Source of the DNA: a virus
Strand: one strand, 5' to 3'
IMG/VR virus record: IMGVR_UViG_3300035698_026835
Location: 1-26,665 of that record
DNA: 26,665 nt
Shown: positions 6,479-26,491 of the stretch, one piece after another
Layout: each line of letters starts with the position of its first letter
Numbering within the stretch: the stretch's first letter is position 1
The notes under the pieces: model-generated
What the model was told of the DNA's origin: nothing
The model's input: only the letters and a program-made list of their open reading frames with translations
Databases searched by the model: none
Program-made: the position numbers and the translations under genes

Positions 6479-6600
6479 TAAAAAGTTGGTTTATAAAAAA
6501 CTTTATTTGTAATGGTTATTTACTTAGTTGTAAGTGTAGTTTGTGTAAAGAACGAGAAGAAAGAGAGGTTACTTGTTTGAAGGCAAGTTTGTTAAAATGA
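6475..6600 (+). CDS. Cysteine-rich mini-protein, 41 aa
   Basis: Begins in an ATGA overlap with GAGGCAACAAA upstream. It carries a CKCSLCKERE segment (CxCxxC) plus two further cysteines, so it could bind zinc. It ends in an ATGA overlap with the methyltransferase gene. Function unknown. Confidence 0.5.
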   Translation: MIKSWFIKNFICNGYLLSCKCSLCKEREEREVTCLKASLLK

Positions 6601-7247
6601 TTAAAGAATTAGTTGATAAAATTTTGTGGAAGAAATTATGGGTTTTGACTGGTTTGAATAAACAAAAAGGTTTTGTTAAAAATTATGAATGTTTAAGAAA
6701 AAGTACTACTTTGAATCATTGTGATATGTTTAATGTTTATTCTTGTGCTCTTGCTTGTAACAAATTAGAGGGTGATGTTGCTGAGGTTGGCGTGTATAAA
6801 GGTAGTAGTGTTAAATTGATTAAACAAATGACTAATAAAGTTGTGTTTGCTTTTGATACTTTTAATGGAATTCCTGAAATTACTAAATTTGATAAAAAAC
6901 AAGGTGGTGGAATGTTTAAAAAAGGTGATTTTAATAGTGGACTTGAAATTATAACAAATTTACAAAAGTTAGGTATTAAAACTTTTAAAGGAATATTTCC
7001 ACAAGAGACAGGAAAATTTGTTGAAAAGGAAAGTTTTTGTTTTGTTCATTTAGACGTAGACGTTTATAAAAGTACTAAGGATTGTTTACAATTCTTTTAT
7101 CCTAGATTAGTAAGTGGAGGAATTATTTTATCGCATGATTATCCGAATAGTTTAGGTGTTAAGAAAGCGTTTGACGAATTTTTTAAAGATAAGAAAGAAG
7201 TATTAATATGTTTGTTAGATCAACAAGTATTAGTAGTAAAAAAGTGA
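6597..7247 (+). CDS. TylF/macrocin-O-methyltransferase-like SAM methyltransferase
   Basis: The start is ATG 6597 (ATGA overlap); TTG 6573 in frame is an alternative. The 216-residue product carries the TylF/MycF family pattern: SAM-binding AEVGVYKGSS (about 63-72), FDTFNGIP (about 86-93), the metal-binding HLDVDVY (about 151-157), FFYPRLVSGGIILSHDYPN (about 166-184). Known members methylate hydroxyls of sugars, in antibiotics or on surface glycans, using Mg2+ and SAM. In a virus it may modify glycans on virion proteins or the host surface; no glycosyltransferase is adjacent, so the substrate is unknown. Length is close to the family norm (about 220-250). Confidence 0.85.
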   Translation: MIKELVDKILWKKLWVLTGLNKQKGFVKNYECLRKSTTLNHCDMFNVYSCALACNKLEGDVAEVGVYKGSSVKLIKQMTNKVVFAFDTFNGIPEITKFDKKQGGGMFKKGDFNSGLEIITNLQKLGIKTFKGIFPQETGKFVEKESFCFVHLDVDVYKSTKDCLQFFYPRLVSGGIILSHDYPNSLGVKKAFDEFFKDKKEVLICLLDQQVLVVKK

Positions 7248-12932: not shown

Positions 12933-12935
12933 TTT

Positions 12936-13019
12936 GCTGTGGTGGCACAATTTGGTAATGCGACAACCTGCTACGTTGTTTACCGAAAGGTTATCTCGGT
13001 TCGAATCCGAGCCACAGCG
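12936..13019 (+). tRNA. tRNA-Ser (anticodon GCT)
   Basis: The acceptor stem GCTGTGG (12936-12942) pairs exactly with CCACAGC (13012-13018), followed by discriminator G13019, the serine identity base. The D arm is GCA/TGC around a loop with TTGGTAA. The anticodon stem ACAAC/GTTGT (12963-12967, 12975-12979) encloses CTGCTAC, anticodon GCT, reading AGC and AGT. A long variable arm with ACC-GAAA-GGT marks it as class II. The T arm is CTCGG-TTCGAAT-CCGAG (12995-13011). No intron and no encoded CCA. It is probably excised from the terminase transcript. Confidence 0.95.
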
Positions 13020-13041
13020 TAAAAAAAAAGGGGAGGGAAAG

Positions 13042-15818: not shown

Positions 15819-15847
15819 ATTCCGTTAGGTTTAAATAATATGAAATA
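15819..15847 (+). promoter_or_regulatory. Late-type promoter (class B) for the portal operon
   Basis: This 29-nt sequence contains ATTCCGTTAGG followed by TTTAAATAATA (TATA box at about 15830-15837) and GAAATA. It recurs without a single change at 20752-20780 before the protease-capsid operon. Conservation across 29 bases suggests a specific activator site as well as the TATA box. Initiation is expected near 15856-15860. Confidence 0.75.
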
Positions 15848-15863
15848 AAATAATAAGTTAGTG

Positions 15864-15918: not shown

Positions 15919-17592
15919 ATGGATTTACTAAAACCTTTTAGAAAAAAAGGAAGTGATGTAGTACAAAAAGCTGGTACTGGAGTCTTTGGTAGTTTAGGTC
16001 TTCCTTCTAAAGACAAATACGACATTTTTAAAGCATACATTCCCGAATTTTTATACAAGCCACCGTATGGTTATCCAAGAAAAGTAAATACTGTACTTCT
16101 TAAAAAACTTGCTCAAAATCCTTACATATTTTCAGTAATTAAAACTTTATATGACGAAATAACAAGTTTAGAGTACAAAATAGTAGTAAAAGAAAGATTT
16201 AGTGAAGACAAACAAGATTATTCTGAAAAAATAAGTGAAATAGAAGGATTCTTTGAAGACCCAAATGGAAACGAACAAAGTTTTGAAGAAATACTAAAAG
16301 CAACTATTGTTGGTATTAGTGAAGTTGACGCTGGAGTATGGGTTAAAGTTTTCAGTCAAGAAGGCCAATTTCAACAATTATTTGTAAGAGATGGTAGTAC
16401 TTTTTTAAAAAATCCTGACATTTTTGGTTATATGGGAAATCGTGCAGAATTTGTACCTCCAGTTTATGACAAATTTTTGAATAATGATTTGAGTAAGATG
16501 GAAGATGCTCAGAGTAAAGAAATTATGAGTCAGTATGATTATTTGTTCCGAAACCAAGCTGCTTATTTTCAGTATGGTTGGACTGCTGGAAGTATGCCTA
16601 TTCCTTTTGGTAAAAGAGAAATAGTTTATTTAATGAGTAATCCTAGGCCTGATACTATTTATGGTAAGAGTCCTTTACAAATACTTCAAGACGTGATTGA
16701 AACTTTAGTTTATGGTGTGGATTATCATCTTGATTATTTTTTGAATAATAACATTCCAGACGGAGTAGTAGAATTGTTAGGTGCTGAAGAAGACCATATT
16801 AAAGCATTTCGTGATGGTATGAATAATCGTGTTCGATTTGAGGATACTTTGGGTAATACTCGTAAAAAATTCTTTAAAGTTCCTATTGTTAGTCAACCTG
16901 TTGAGTTTAAACCGTTTAGTTTTAATAGTAAGGATATGCAAATTTTGGAACAACAAGAATGGTTTACTAAGCTCGTGTGGTCATGCTTTGGGGTGACTGC
17001 TGAAGAAATGGGTTATACTCAAGATAGTAATAAGGCTGTGGCTCAGGTTCAGAGTAAAGTTAATGTTCGTAAGGCTATTCGTCCGTTTATTAAATTAATC
17101 AAGTATTATATTGATAGTGAAATATTGCCTGAATTTTTTGTTGGTGAGGTAGAACCAGGAAGGTATAGTGAGAGTTTGCCTGATTTTAAGAAAGTTCCTG
17201 TTGAGTTCGTTTTTGATGATTATGATGTGGATGATGACAAAAAAAGTCATGATTTGTTGGAGCAAGAAATTCGTATGGGTGTTAAAACTCCTGATATGGT
17301 TGCTGCTGAACTTAATATTGATGTTGATAAATTGAATAAGAGTAAGGATGAATTGTTTGATAAACAGGTTGAACAAAATGAGGTTATGGGTGTTGATGAA
17401 GATTCTAATTTTGATAAAAAAGAAGAAAATGATGTTGAAATAGTTGAGGAAAAGAGTGTTGAGAATGTTATTAAACAAGGAGAAAAGGTTGTTAAAGATA
17501 TGGACTCTGTTATTGATACGATTGGTAATGGTATAATTAGTGCGATTGAGGATATGCCTGAGGATGAGTTTAAGCGAGAAAGTGGAGGTTAA
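15919..17592 (+). CDS. Portal protein (HK97/phage-portal type), 557 aa
   Basis: The first ~60 residues are basic with a YGYPRKVNTVLLKKLAQNPY segment. The core shows features of dodecameric portals: LIKDEITS-like wing (TLYDEITSLEYKIVVKERF), a VRDGSTF strand, GKREIVYLMSNPRPDTIYGK (about 233-252) followed by SPLQILQDVIETLVYGVDYH, the crown/clip helices, and a FGVTAEEMGYTQDSNKAVAQ turn typical of these proteins. The acidic C-terminal ~100 residues (DVDDDKKSHDLLEQEIRMG...) match the usual tail. It forms the DNA channel at one capsid vertex and binds terminase. Translation starts without an SD site after a structured leader. A 26-nt piece (16498-16523, encoding MEDAQSKE) is copied twice at 26221-26270. 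Confidence 0.9.
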   Translation: MDLLKPFRKKGSDVVQKAGTGVFGSLGLPSKDKYDIFKAYIPEFLYKPPYGYPRKVNTVLLKKLAQNPYIFSVIKTLYDEITSLEYKIVVKERFSEDKQDYSEKISEIEGFFEDPNGNEQSFEEILKATIVGISEVDAGVWVKVFSQEGQFQQLFVRDGSTFLKNPDIFGYMGNRAEFVPPVYDKFLNNDLSKMEDAQSKEIMSQYDYLFRNQAAYFQYGWTAGSMPIPFGKREIVYLMSNPRPDTIYGKSPLQILQDVIETLVYGVDYHLDYFLNNNIPDGVVELLGAEEDHIKAFRDGMNNRVRFEDTLGNTRKKFFKVPIVSQPVEFKPFSFNSKDMQILEQQEWFTKLVWSCFGVTAEEMGYTQDSNKAVAQVQSKVNVRKAIRPFIKLIKYYIDSEILPEFFVGEVEPGRYSESLPDFKKVPVEFVFDDYDVDDDKKSHDLLEQEIRMGVKTPDMVAAELNIDVDKLNKSKDELFDKQVEQNEVMGVDEDSNFDKKEENDVEIVEEKSVENVIKQGEKVVKDMDSVIDTIGNGIISAIEDMPEDEFKRESGG

Positions 17593-18211: not shown

Positions 18212-18222
18212 CCGTGGAATGA

Positions 18223-18236
18223 CAACATTTAAATAG
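18223..18236 (+). promoter_or_regulatory. Archaeal promoter (class A variant) for HNH gene 1
   Basis: ACAACATTTAAATA includes TATA box TTTAAATA (18228-18235). It closely resembles the class A promoters at 1612 and 25867. The expected start near 18258 leaves a leader of about 12 nt containing GGTGATA before ATG 18270. Confidence 0.65.
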
Positions 18237-18269
18237 TATTAAGTAAACCATATTTATTGGGTGATATAT

Positions 18270-18764
18270 ATGGAACATAAAACAAACTGCTCCCAATGCG
18301 GAGCACAAATAGTAAGAACAAGAAGAATTAAGAAAGAAACAAATTTTTGTTGTACTTCGTGCCAAATGAAGTATGAATACGCAAATGGCATAAGAGACGC
18401 AAAAACAATAACAAGAAAAGCAAATGAACACGTAAGAAAGTATGGGCAACCACACTTAATTGGAAGAACTGGTAAGTTAAATGGAAACTGGAAAGGTGGG
18501 AGAGTCATACACAAGAGCGGTTATATGAGAATAAGAAAATTTGGGGGATATGTCCTAGAACATCGTTATGTTTGGGAGAAAACAAATGGAGAAATACCTG
18601 ATGGATGGCAAGTACATCACATCAATGGAGACAAATTGGATAACAGAATAGAAAATTTAAGGATAATACCAAATGCAGAACATCAGAAGTTGCATAAGCA
18701 ATCGCACGGTGAAGATGGTAAGTTCATTAAAAATGTTGTAAAACTTTTGAGGGTTGTAGAATGA
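18270..18764 (+). CDS. HNH homing-type endonuclease, 164 aa
   Basis: N-terminal CSQCG (about 7-11) and CCTSC (about 27-31) form a zinc finger. A NWKGG segment follows, then the HNH_3-type nuclease: GYVLEHRYVWEKTNGEIPDG (about 93-112), VHHINGDKLDNRIENL (His116-His117, Asn128) and EHQKLH (about 138-142). Free-standing enzymes of this type cut DNA lacking the insertion and spread between viral genomes. It interrupts the head module between MuF and 18761, brings its own promoter, and its 3' end carries the GAGGG RBS of the next gene. ATG 18270 has GGTGAT at good spacing; GTG 18261 is a weaker alternative. Confidence 0.9.
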   Translation: MEHKTNCSQCGAQIVRTRRIKKETNFCCTSCQMKYEYANGIRDAKTITRKANEHVRKYGQPHLIGRTGKLNGNWKGGRVIHKSGYMRIRKFGGYVLEHRYVWEKTNGEIPDGWQVHHINGDKLDNRIENLRIIPNAEHQKLHKQSHGEDGKFIKNVVKLLRVVE

Positions 18765-20751: not shown

Positions 20752-20780
20752 ATTCCGTTAGGTTTAAATAATATGAAATA
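20752..20780 (+). promoter_or_regulatory. Late-type promoter (class B) for the protease-capsid operon
   Basis: Exact 29-nt copy of 15819-15847, with TATA box TTTAAATA at 20763-20770. Initiation near 20788-20793 would give a nearly leaderless mRNA for ATG 20796, unlike the ~60-nt leader of the portal copy. Confidence 0.75.
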
Positions 20781-20795
20781 TGAGAATAGGTTAAT

Positions 20796-21821
20796 ATGAT
20801 TGATAATGATATAAAAACTAAGAGTTTTGTGTTCTATACTAATAGTGTTAATTATGAAGAAATAAGTTTTAAAGGAAAAAAGCGTTATTATGTTACTGGA
20901 TTTATTTCTACGAATGATATTGATATAGAAAATGAGGTAGTTACTGAAAAAGCTATGACTGAAATGTTAAGCGAACTTAATAGTAGAAGTGTTACTACTG
21001 ATTATGACCATGACGTTTTTCGTACTGAAAACAATAATTTGTTAGCAGTTGGTAAAATTGTGGATGCTAAACTTAAACAAAAAGGAAGCAAAGTTGGTAT
21101 TTGGGCTAAAGTAGAATTGAATAGTAGTTGGAAACGTTTTGATGAAACTGGAAAGATAGTAATGAATTTTAGTGAGTTATGGAGTAGTATTAAAGGAGGA
21201 TTTAGCAACGCTTTTAGTATTGCATTTAAGCCTTTGAAAAGTGTAACAAAAATTGTTGATGGTGTTAAGGTTAAAATGATTGACAGTCTTGAATTATTAA
21301 ATGTGGCTATTACTGGTATGCCTGTTAATAGTGGGGCTGTTATGGATGGGTATAATATGAAGAGTGTATTAAGAAATAGTATGAAAGAAGACGTTAATGA
21401 AAGTTTGGAAGTAATAAATAATAAGTTGGATGTTCTTAACTCTCGTTTAGGGAGTATAGATAATAAATCGGAGGAAAAAAAAATGAGTGAAGAAAAAGCT
21501 CCTGAGGGAGAAGATGTTAAAGAAGTAGTTGAAGATTCTGCTGTTGAAAAAAAAGAGGAAGTGGAAGAAAAACCAGAAGCTCCTGTTGAGGCAGAAGTGG
21601 AAGAGAAGGGTGAAGAAAAAGAAGAAACTGAACCTAAAGTTGATGTTGAACAAAAGTCTAAAATGGATGAAGTTCTTAAAGAACTAAAGAGTGTTACTGA
21701 TAGATTGAAAAGTCTTGAAACAAAACAAAAAAGTGGAGTTTTTAAAAGTGTCGTAGATGCTGAAGCTCCTACTGAAGAAATAAAAAAAGAAGATATTGGC
21801 ATTATAGCTAGTATAAGATAA
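20796..21821 (+). CDS. Prohead protease fused to scaffold-like tail, 341 aa
   Basis: The N-terminal ~185 residues match HK97-family prohead proteases: YYVTGFISTNDIDIENEVVT, TTDYDHD with His72, and FSNAFSIAFKP with Ser141, the likely His-Ser catalytic pair. The family is a serine protease that matures the capsid from inside. The C-terminal ~110 residues are very Glu/Lys-rich and coiled-coil, as in scaffold domains. An internal in-frame ATG with its own RBS (21483) may produce that part alone. The gene is next to the major capsid gene, as usual. Confidence 0.88.
   Translation: MIDNDIKTKSFVFYTNSVNYEEISFKGKKRYYVTGFISTNDIDIENEVVTEKAMTEMLSELNSRSVTTDYDHDVFRTENNNLLAVGKIVDAKLKQKGSKVGIWAKVELNSSWKRFDETGKIVMNFSELWSSIKGGFSNAFSIAFKPLKSVTKIVDGVKVKMIDSLELLNVAITGMPVNSGAVMDGYNMKSVLRNSMKEDVNESLEVINNKLDVLNSRLGSIDNKSEEKKMSEEKAPEGEDVKEVVEDSAVEKKEEVEEKPEAPVEAEVEEKGEEKEETEPKVDVEQKSKMDEVLKELKSVTDRLKSLETKQKSGVFKSVVDAEAPTEEIKKEDIGIIASIR
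21483..21821 (+). CDS. Probable nested scaffold protein from an internal start, 112 aa
   Basis: ATG 21483 is in frame with the protease and preceded by GGAGGAAAAAAAAATGAGT, identical to the sequence at the start of the major capsid gene (21824-21842). The product begins MSEEKAPEGEDVKEVVEDSA, is acidic and ends in a coiled coil (KMDEVLKELKSVTDRLKSLE). Phage lambda makes its scaffold (Nu3) from a similar internal start in its protease gene. The strong, duplicated RBS argues for real expression. Confidence 0.65.
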   Translation: MSEEKAPEGEDVKEVVEDSAVEKKEEVEEKPEAPVEAEVEEKGEEKEETEPKVDVEQKSKMDEVLKELKSVTDRLKSLETKQKSGVFKSVVDAEAPTEEIKKEDIGIIASIR

Positions 21822-22998: not shown

Positions 22999-23322
22999 AT
23001 GACAAGTGCTGTAACAGCAAGTATGCAAAATAACGGAGATTATATTGCACCTATTGGTGGTGCTGATAATGATGGATGGAAACTTGGATATATTGAAATA
23101 GGTAATAAAGGAGAAGCAGGTTGTTGGGTTACAATAGGCGATGTTACTGAAGTTAGAAATGCTGTATTAAGTTCAAATAGTGCAACTGCATCTATAATGA
23201 GTGGTGCTGCACCTCCTGCTGAAGGTGGTAAAGTAATGGATTATGCTAGTAATTTTAGTGCTAATACGTTTCTTTTACATTTAGGCGTGGGAACTAGTAG
23301 TGGACTTATAGAGTATAGATAA
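22999..23322 (+). CDS. Capsid-associated/decoration-like protein A1, 107 aa
   Basis: RBS GGGGAGGAGGAA. The product is small, beta-rich and Gly/Ser/Thr/Ala-rich (MTSAVTASMQNNGDYIAPIG...GWKLGYIEIGNKGEAGCWVT). It is paralogous to the next gene, sharing DGWKLGYIEIG/RGWKLGYINLG, VTIGDV.EV, GGKVMDYAS and FxLHxGxGTSSG. Tandem placement after the capsid gene suggests a capsid decoration or turret protein; this is inference. Confidence 0.65.
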   Translation: MTSAVTASMQNNGDYIAPIGGADNDGWKLGYIEIGNKGEAGCWVTIGDVTEVRNAVLSSNSATASIMSGAAPPAEGGKVMDYASNFSANTFLLHLGVGTSSGLIEYR

Positions 23323-23338
23323 AATGGAGGAATAGAAA

Positions 23339-23671
23339 ATGTCAATGACAAGTGCTATAACTGCAAGTATAACTGATAATGGTACTATTTTAGCTCCAAC
23401 AGGAGGAGCAGGTAATCGTGGTTGGAAGCTTGGGTATATAAATTTAGGATTCAAGGGTTCGGCTGCTTGTAATGTTACGATTGGTGACGTTGCTGAAGTT
23501 AAATGTGCTCTTTTGAGTTCGGATGGAGCTACTGCTCGTATAATTGATAATATAAGTGGTACTGCCGTAACAGGTGGTAAAGTGATGGATTATGCAAGTG
23601 ATTATGTTGATAACACTTTTATATTACATCAAGGTACTGGAACAAGTAGTGGAGTTATAGTATATAAATAA
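23339..23671 (+). CDS. Capsid-associated/decoration-like protein A2, 110 aa
   Basis: Paralogue of the preceding gene (GGWKLGYI-like, VTIGDVAEVKCALLSSDGATA, GGKVMDYASDYVDNTFILHQGTGTSSG in matching order). It starts MSMTSAITASITDNGTILAP behind GGAGGAATAGAAA. Duplication after a shared start region suggests recent expansion. Probably part of the virion surface. Confidence 0.65.
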   Translation: MSMTSAITASITDNGTILAPTGGAGNRGWKLGYINLGFKGSAACNVTIGDVAEVKCALLSSDGATARIIDNISGTAVTGGKVMDYASDYVDNTFILHQGTGTSSGVIVYK

Positions 23672-23672
23672 A

Positions 23673-23720
23673 ATGGAGGAATGAAATAAAATGGCAAGTA
23701 GAGTTACTGCAAGTTTAAGT
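23673..23720 (+). repeat. 48-nt direct repeat, copy 1
   Basis: Covers ATGGAGGAATGAAATAAA and the first ten codons of protein B1 and is identical to 24017-24064 (copy 2) at the start of protein B2. It records a gene duplication or gene conversion. Confidence 0.8.
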
Positions 23721-23975
23721 GGAGCAACAATTGGTGCTGGAAGTTCAAGTAGTGGAACTGGTTTAGTTGGAGGAGTTTATGTTGTTACAAAAGCTGCTGC
23801 ATCTGACTTTTTTACAGTACCAGATTTTACTGCAATACATTATCTTAATGGTAAATTAGAATGGACCGAAAATATTACTGCATCAGTTGATAGTACAACT
23901 GCAAATAAAGTAACGTTTAGTCCTAGCACTACTGTTGGAGTATGTACGTGTTGGATTGTTGGAACACCTGATTAA
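23691..23975 (+). CDS. Capsid-associated/decoration-like protein B1, 94 aa
   Basis: RBS GGAGGAATGAAATAAA. The product opens MASRVTASLSGATIGAGSSS and has an SDFFTVPDFTAIHYLNGKLE stretch and a CTCWIVGTPD end. It is paralogous to the gene at 24035, and its VTAS opening recalls proteins A1 and A2. Its first 48 nt of leader and coding sequence are identical to 24017-24064. Probably a minor capsid or surface protein. Confidence 0.6.
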   Translation: MASRVTASLSGATIGAGSSSSGTGLVGGVYVVTKAAASDFFTVPDFTAIHYLNGKLEWTENITASVDSTTANKVTFSPSTTVGVCTCWIVGTPD

Positions 23976-23978
23976 AAC

Positions 23979-24001
23979 AAAACCTTTTTTTGGTTTTTTT
24001 T
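23979..24001 (+). terminator. Hairpin plus T-run between the B1 and B2 genes
   Basis: AAAACC (23979-23984) can pair with GGTTTT (23992-23997) around a T7 loop, and the T-run extends to 24001. Two T-runs close together fit archaeal termination or attenuation. A new TATA-like TTATTATAATA (24007-24017) follows, but it is too close to the ATG to serve as a normal promoter. Confidence 0.5.
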
Positions 24002-24016
24002 AGTCTTTATTATAAT

Positions 24017-24064
24017 ATGGAGGAATGAAATAAAATGGCAAGTAGAGTTACTGCAAGTTTAAGT
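24017..24064 (+). repeat. 48-nt direct repeat, copy 2
   Basis: Identical to 23673-23720. The RBS, spacing and first ten codons are all conserved, so selection or recent conversion has kept the initiation region unchanged while the coding region diverged. Confidence 0.8.
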
Positions 24065-24325
24065 TGTGGAAGTATAGGAAATGGTAGTTCAAAAAGTGGA
24101 ACTGGAAGTGTTAGTGGTTATTATATTGTGACTACAACTGCTGCAAGTGATGTAGTTGGTTTTTCAGATTTTACTGCAATTCATTGGTTTAATGCTCGTA
24201 TGGGTGCTTTAACTGGTGGAACTGTTGATGTTAGTGCTAGTGTGTCTAGTATTACTGCTAACGATATTGAATGGACTGCTGTTACTGGTAGATGTACTGC
24301 TTTCGTAGTTGGAACACCTGCATAA
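24035..24325 (+). CDS. Capsid-associated/decoration-like protein B2, 96 aa
   Basis: Paralogue of B1: same MASRVTASLS opening, GSSKSGTGSVSGYYIVTTTA, FSDFTAIHWFNARMGALTGG, and a CTAFVVGTPA end matching CTCWIVGTPD. It lies beyond a possible attenuator, so its level may be lower. Probably virion-associated. Confidence 0.6.
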   Translation: MASRVTASLSCGSIGNGSSKSGTGSVSGYYIVTTTAASDVVGFSDFTAIHWFNARMGALTGGTVDVSASVSSITANDIEWTAVTGRCTAFVVGTPA

Positions 24326-25862: not shown

Positions 25863-25866
25863 AAAT

Positions 25867-25885
25867 AATAACAACATTTATATAA
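25867..25885 (+). promoter_or_regulatory. Archaeal promoter (class A) for HNH gene 2
   Basis: AATAACAACATTTATATAA is identical to the promoter at 1612-1630. TATA box at 25877-25884; the start near 25905 leaves a short leader with GGTGATA before ATG 25918. Confidence 0.75.
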
Positions 25886-25917
25886 TACAACGATTTTACT
25901 TCCATTGGTGATATAAA

Positions 25918-26491
25918 ATGGTAGTATATAACTTAAAATGCGAGATATGTCATAAAAAGTTTAAGGCAAGAAGAAGAAATAACGCACCACCTCCAAAGTA
26001 TTGCGGACAAGCATGTTATAGTATTCGTATGAAACAAAAATGGAATGATGAAACTTATCGGAAAGATATGGTTCAAAAACATTTAGACAATCCAACAAAA
26101 TATTGGTTAGGAAAGAAAAGACCAGATATGCAGGGAAGTAATAATCCACGTTGGAAAGAAGTAAAAGGAAGTTATATTGATAACGGGTATAATGTGTTAT
26201 ATCGTCCAGACTTTGTCATAATTTCTTTACTCTGAGCATCTTCCATGGAAGATGCTCAGAGTAAAGAAATAATATAGTGATAGTAAAGGATGTATAATGG
26301 AACACAGGTTTGTTTGGGTTAAGGCTCATGGAAAAATACCTGAAGGATATATGCTTCATCATAAGGATGAAAACAAGTTGAATAATAAGCTTGAGAATTT
26401 ACAATTAACGACAAGAAGTGAACATACAAAGATTCATAACAATTTGAGGATAAAATATGGTACAAAAAGCATTAACAGTAGCGGACTTTAA
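25918..26491 (+). pseudogene. HNH homing-type endonuclease split by a 50-nt palindrome
   Basis: The first part (25918-26235) has CEICHKKF (about 8-15) and YCGQAC zinc ligands, NNPRWKEVKGSYIDNGYNVL and ends at a stop inside the palindrome. The second part (from ATG 26297) has the catalytic half: MEHRFVWVKAHGKIPEGYML, HHKDENKLNNKLENLQLTT and EHTKIH. Removing 52 nt (26221-26272) joins them in one frame (...PDFVI-YSDSKGCIMEHRFVW...), giving 173 residues that match the plan of the HNH gene at 18270. So the gene looks intact except for the palindrome. Two separate peptides are still possible. It brings its own promoter, and its end overlaps the next gene by 35 nt. Confidence 0.8.
26221..26270. repeat. 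Perfect 50-nt palindrome built from portal sequence
   Basis: Two 25-nt arms, 26221-26245 and 26246-26270, are perfect reverse complements with no loop. The 26-nt right segment 26245-26270 (starts ATGGAAGATGCTCAGAG) is identical to 16498-16523 of the portal gene; the left segment is its reverse complement. Real insertion and assembly or amplification artefact are both possible. Confidence 0.9.

Follow-up and report, generated by a model that had tools for sequence, protein, structure and literature searches.

Distant inverted insertions at DNA breaks in yeast consist of two overlapping pieces of a single locus in opposite orientation, with a median overlap of 50 bp (PMC11724301). Their microhomology is 0-4 nt where they meet the break ends and 2-11 nt (median 6) where the two pieces meet, and they occur in rad27 and RPA mutants as well as in wild-type stationary cells. 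The study attributes them to copying on a flap or fold-back intermediate, the product of which is then captured at the break (PMC11724301). Inverted repeats are also made or perfected by wrong-strand synthesis in the quasipalindrome-associated template-switch mutations of E. coli and yeast (PMC7202029, PMC3820800). Finally, fold-back palindromes are well-known products of whole-genome amplification and library preparation (PMC6218980, PMC10908179).

The stretch analysed here (hereafter the window) is an entire IMG/VR virus record, linear and 26,665 bases long, in which a perfect palindrome interrupts a gene for an HNH endonuclease. We consider it probable that the HNH gene of this tailed virus took up a templated distant inverted insertion very recently, and that the insert is non-functional and present in a real molecule. 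If so, it would to our knowledge be the first distant inverted templated insertion from a prokaryotic virus.

As in the yeast cases, two overlapping and opposite copies of one remote locus, tens of bp long, are placed at one point, and the joints (0 and 0 nt of microhomology at the outer ends, 2 nt between the pieces) lie within the yeast ranges, the 2 nt shared by the copies standing against a yeast median of 6. However, the yeast events follow an induced break and are joined by NHEJ or alternative end joining, whereas here the break is presumed, in a prokaryotic virus for whose likely hosts Ku was not found in metagenome-assembled genomes (MAGs). Template switching at quasipalindromes starts from a pre-existing local imperfect palindrome, whereas the donor in the window lies 9.7 kb from the insert, at a site without a palindrome. 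The interrupted gene belongs to the phage free-standing HNH_3 (PF13392) homing-type endonucleases, whose presence varies at the same site among relatives; it departs from them in that the window copy is broken, and no intron is involved.

The palindrome and its portal donor

The following features define the donor and the insert.

15919..17592, + strand: portal protein gene, intact, 557 aa (Pfam Phage_portal, 7e-21)
16498..16528, + strand: donor site, portal codons 194-204, native and colinear in relatives (comparison with relatives)
26216..26270, + strand: putative templated insertion of 55 nt (portal identity of both arms; excision gives a gap-free alignment with the L096 orthologue)
26221..26270, no strand: perfect palindrome with 25-nt arms and no loop (sequence; predicted RNA fold of -40.2 kcal/mol, z -8.9)

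The exact 50-bp palindrome at 26221-26270, with loopless 25-nt arms and zero mismatches, was reproduced as given in the original prediction, and so was the identity of the right arm (26245-26270) with portal positions 16498-16523 at 26 of 26 bases. The other arm had been described as the reverse complement of the same 26-nt piece; its antisense nature was borne out, but its length had been understated, since 26216-26246 is the reverse complement of portal 16498-16528 at all 31 bases. The insert therefore reads as antisense portal from 16528 to 16499 (26216-26245, 30 nt), then as sense portal from 16499 to 16523 (26246-26270, 25 nt). All of its 55 bases are traceable to portal sequence, the direction of the copy reversing at portal base 16499. 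The two inverted copies share an overlap of 2 nt (AT) at the turn because portal 16498-16499 is AT, which is self-complementary.

In a window of such composition, about 1.5e-9 inverted matches of 31 nt and about 3e-10 palindromes with 25-nt arms are expected, and a 26-mer match to the portal gene appeared in none of 100 shuffles. A chance origin of the portal match and of the palindrome is excluded, in agreement with what had been claimed for the 26-nt match.

In L005 and L006, the two closest relatives by portal, the portal protein is continuous through the donor stretch, with no insertion inside it, and the only difference from the window there, of two residues, lies before this stretch. The portal site is thus colinear in these relatives, which indicates that the portal copy is native and that the copy in the HNH gene is derived. 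The donor remains whole and the portal reading frame intact, as expected of a copy and not of a cut.

The core of the palindrome was not found in any IMG/VR contig outside the window, its DNA had no match in phage and plasmid collections, and within the window only the donor and the insert carry the sequence. A search for the same hairpin in related genomes, suggested as a check with the original prediction, showed it to be absent from every relative examined, including L096, L005 and L014. We also surveyed 1.86 Mb in 161 non-redundant loci, drawn almost wholly from IMG/VR contigs but with a few MAG contigs and one phage genome, and comprising relatives and unrelated marine podovirus contigs. 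A single further palindrome there had arms of 14 nt or longer: a perfect 32-bp one at L088:3021-3052, whose arm has no remote copy and which, being followed by TTTTAT, is probably a terminator. Comparable inserts thus occur at a rate below about 1.6 per Mb, a bound from a small survey that leaves room for rare cases elsewhere, and such inserts are no common fault of these assemblies.

The disrupted HNH gene and its empty site in relatives

The interrupted gene and its remaining downstream frame are as follows.

25918..26491, + strand: HNH homing-type endonuclease gene, interrupted, with a zinc-ribbon-like N-terminus and an HNH_3 C-terminus (profiles; intact orthologue at L096:6956-7447)
26297..26491, + strand: downstream frame from an ATG, keeping the whole HNH_3 motif (open reading frame list, Pfam)

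The claim that a stop in the first arm splits the HNH reading frame was confirmed: an insert-borne stop at 26233-26235 ends the protein after 105 residues, upstream of the catalytic HNH_3 motif, and leaves this gene without a single uninterrupted HNH frame. The downstream part still scores 59.1 bits with the HNH_3 profile (PF13392; cut-off 24.8), and this frame could be produced by re-initiation only. No further lesion was seen in the HNH gene besides the insertion, which implies that the break is either recent or false.

The empty site is provided by L096 (IMGVR_UViG_3300031227_000687), recovered in a scan that used 13 aligned capsid proteins. In this contig the same two neighbour genes flank an intact HNH orthologue, with 57% identity over 168 residues and 73-76% DNA identity in the alignable part. 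When the 55 portal-derived bases are left out of the window gene, the junction codon becomes GAA, opposite AAA in L096, and the junction aligns without a gap (RPDYKYSNKKG in L096, RPDF-[E]-YSDSKG in the window). Spacing is likewise unchanged in L014 and L016, whose HNH genes at this site read PRHPHANSQG. Judged against L096, the HNH sequence resumes without a base lost or gained, there is no target duplication, and microhomology at the outer joints is 0 and 0 nt. Three independent criteria, namely the limits of portal identity, the reading frame and the spacing in the orthologues, thus agree on a clean 55-bp insertion, with target bases neither lost nor duplicated. A scan for close relatives of the N-terminal half of the HNH protein returned none.

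Excision of 52 nt, as originally proposed, does restore the frame, but so do many lengths leaving a remainder of 1 modulo 3; the 55-nt boundary is preferred, since it coincides with the whole stretch of portal identity and leaves no gap in the spacing relative to L096. The intact HNH gene at 18270, to which the plan of the restored frame had been likened, does encode an HNH_3 protein, but it is a distant paralogue lacking PDF..YSDSKG, so that L096 and not this gene is the right template. The paralogous HNH frame at 18261 was accordingly rejected as a model of the empty site, the segment concerned being missing from it.

The interval that separates the head-tail adaptor gene from the following gene (window 25863-26456) is a variable site among relatives. 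HNH genes of different kinds occupy it in the window, L096, L013 and L014/L016, unrelated open frames in L073, L043 and L114, and almost nothing in L110 and L054; L005 has a different short spacer, and in many relatives there is almost no gap between the neighbour genes. HNH genes at this site come and go, which argues that the loss of one is tolerated and that the gene is dispensable.

The virus, its likely host and other features

The window encodes a terminase (phrog_38), the portal protein, a Mu-F-like protein and an SU10-type capsid. Relatives of the capsid occur in MAG contigs assigned to Woesearchaeota (two), Nanoarchaeota, an unclassified archaeon, WOR-3 (one) and Bacteroidia (one). 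From these archaeal MAGs, together with archaeal-looking TATA boxes, it is reasonable to infer a tailed virus with a probable DPANN archaeal host, bearing in mind that MAG bins can be mixed. The capsid relatives in the genome contigs L115, L119 and L120, from Woesearchaeota and Nanoarchaeota MAGs, point to a group of tailed DPANN viruses. Scanning viral contigs for the terminase added no relative that could be confirmed.

One candidate promoter element precedes the disrupted gene.

25877..25884, + strand: TATA-like box TTTATATA, some 40 nt upstream of the start of the HNH gene (sequence pattern only)

Its context, ACAACATTTAWATA, recurs as a pattern before the other HNH gene, at 18228. Promoter-like copies of ACAACATTTAWATA stand at 1614-1629, 18220-18235 and 25869-25884, before both HNH genes and one early region, and in L096 a TTTAAATA box immediately follows the adaptor gene and stands ahead of that contig's HNH gene. 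The HNH nuclease genes thus seem to travel with their own putative archaeal-type promoter. In addition, a 42-nt intergenic repeat, ATTCCGTTAGGTTTAAATAATATGAAATA, is present in two copies, 90% identical, at 15819-15860 before the portal gene and at 20752-20793 before the gene at 20796; containing the TTTAAATA box, it looks like a shared late promoter. Other features of the contig include a tRNA-Ser (GCT) gene at 12935-13020, directly after the terminase gene, a TylF/macrocin-O-methyltransferase-like gene at 6573-7247, and two pairs of tandem duplicated small genes (22999-23671 and 23691-24325, 77-80% identical DNA) after the capsid gene.

Origin and meaning of the insert

We infer that the molecule is present in the virus population, that it arose by a break and fold-back capture, and that it lacks a function of its own. 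By analogy with the two-step route described for yeast, which lends this account its break, its fold-back intermediate and its joining enzyme, a short DNA would have been copied from the portal gene, antisense first, with an inverted turn at 16499 and then along the sense strand. This fold-back copy may then have been captured at a break in the HNH gene between window bases 26215 and 26271, the flanks being neither trimmed nor duplicated. The outcome would be the perfect palindrome with its stop codon and an HNH protein cut short before the catalytic motif. Joining could have been carried out by alternative end joining or by a simple ligase, given that Ku was not found in four MAGs of likely host groups linked to the relatives, which may be incomplete. 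The end-joining step would thus be without a known machine there, and this is a weakness of the break-capture view. A polymerase template switch returning to the original template was also considered; the insert 3' end, AAAGAAAT, finds no match in the HNH sequence before the site, and capture at a break therefore fits better. Two separate events (a 30-nt in-frame insertion, then a local inverted duplication) are possible and less economical.

The original prediction had offered a templated portal insertion disrupting the HNH gene or else an artefact, an alternative that the empty site of the L096 orthologue backs and makes more precise. It is possible, though we find it the more doubtful of the two, that the inverted portal copy entered the contig through an assembly error, or through a chimeric molecule formed while the DNA was amplified or made into a library. 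Fold-back palindromes are well known from amplified and library DNA and have perfect inverted junctions, as in the window (PMC6218980, PMC10908179). The insertion is seen in one contig, about 400 bp from its end, where coverage may be low; its arms are mutation-free, without signs of ageing, and the perfect inverted junction is not conserved, with no relative carrying the palindrome and no second observation. However, the known artefacts have a single joint and no precise return to the interrupted sequence, whereas the window insert has three joints and resumes at the very next HNH base with no outer microhomology, an exact return that is hard to get from them. The absence of a comparable case in the surveyed loci also speaks against a fault of this kind, and the main virion genes are intact, which argues that the contig is not generally poor.

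A functional hairpin, acting as a cis regulator or as an antisense element against portal mRNA, is very improbable. Its predicted RNA fold is very stable and 31 nt are complementary to portal mRNA, but these antisense bases would be self-paired in a perfect 23-25-bp stem of about -40 kcal/mol. Moreover, even L096, with its orthologous HNH gene, lacks the hairpin, so that conservation or covariation is not seen; no terminator-like T run follows the palindrome, a search of Rfam matched a tRNA only, and the element lies in a coding frame. The suggestions of a cis regulator or captured anti-portal sequence thus found no support, nor did that of a terminal hairpin relic, in view of the absence from relatives and the position inside coding sequence. 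A mobile palindromic element (REP/IS200-like or MITE-like) could present a perfect hairpin in an interrupted gene without target duplication; this reading is already largely refuted and barely credible, as every base derives from portal coding sequence and there are no dispersed copies, neither in the window beyond donor and insert nor in the collections searched. Least credible of all, with almost no weight, is an archaeal bulge-helix-bulge intron spliced from the HNH mRNA. The likely archaeal host and the restoration of the frame on removal are in its favour, but the predicted fold is a continuous stem with an outer 7-bp helix and a 1/6-nt internal loop instead of a pair of 3-nt bulges with a 4-bp helix between them, and a portal-derived sequence is unexpected for an intron.

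Our preferred reading thus stays with a templated insertion, and the locus has the look of a single repair accident, less probably of a sequencing fault, and not of a working genetic device. Pending confirmation in reads, it is an insertion ordinary in kind and exceptionally clear, disrupting a gene for a homing-type nuclease; such events are already known from yeast, and the viral case is a curiosity. There is a small chance that DPANN viruses or their hosts run an active fold-back copy-and-capture process that seeds perfect palindromes from gene to gene. If the insertion is not real, it usefully warns that a three-joint palindromic insert can sit in a contig that looks clean. If it is real, it is a complex insertion mutation readable to the base, from the donor and the point of the turn to the two joints and, through an orthologue, the empty site, as well as a fresh case of the loss of a homing-type nuclease; break repair through captured fold-back copies would then also shape archaeal viruses.
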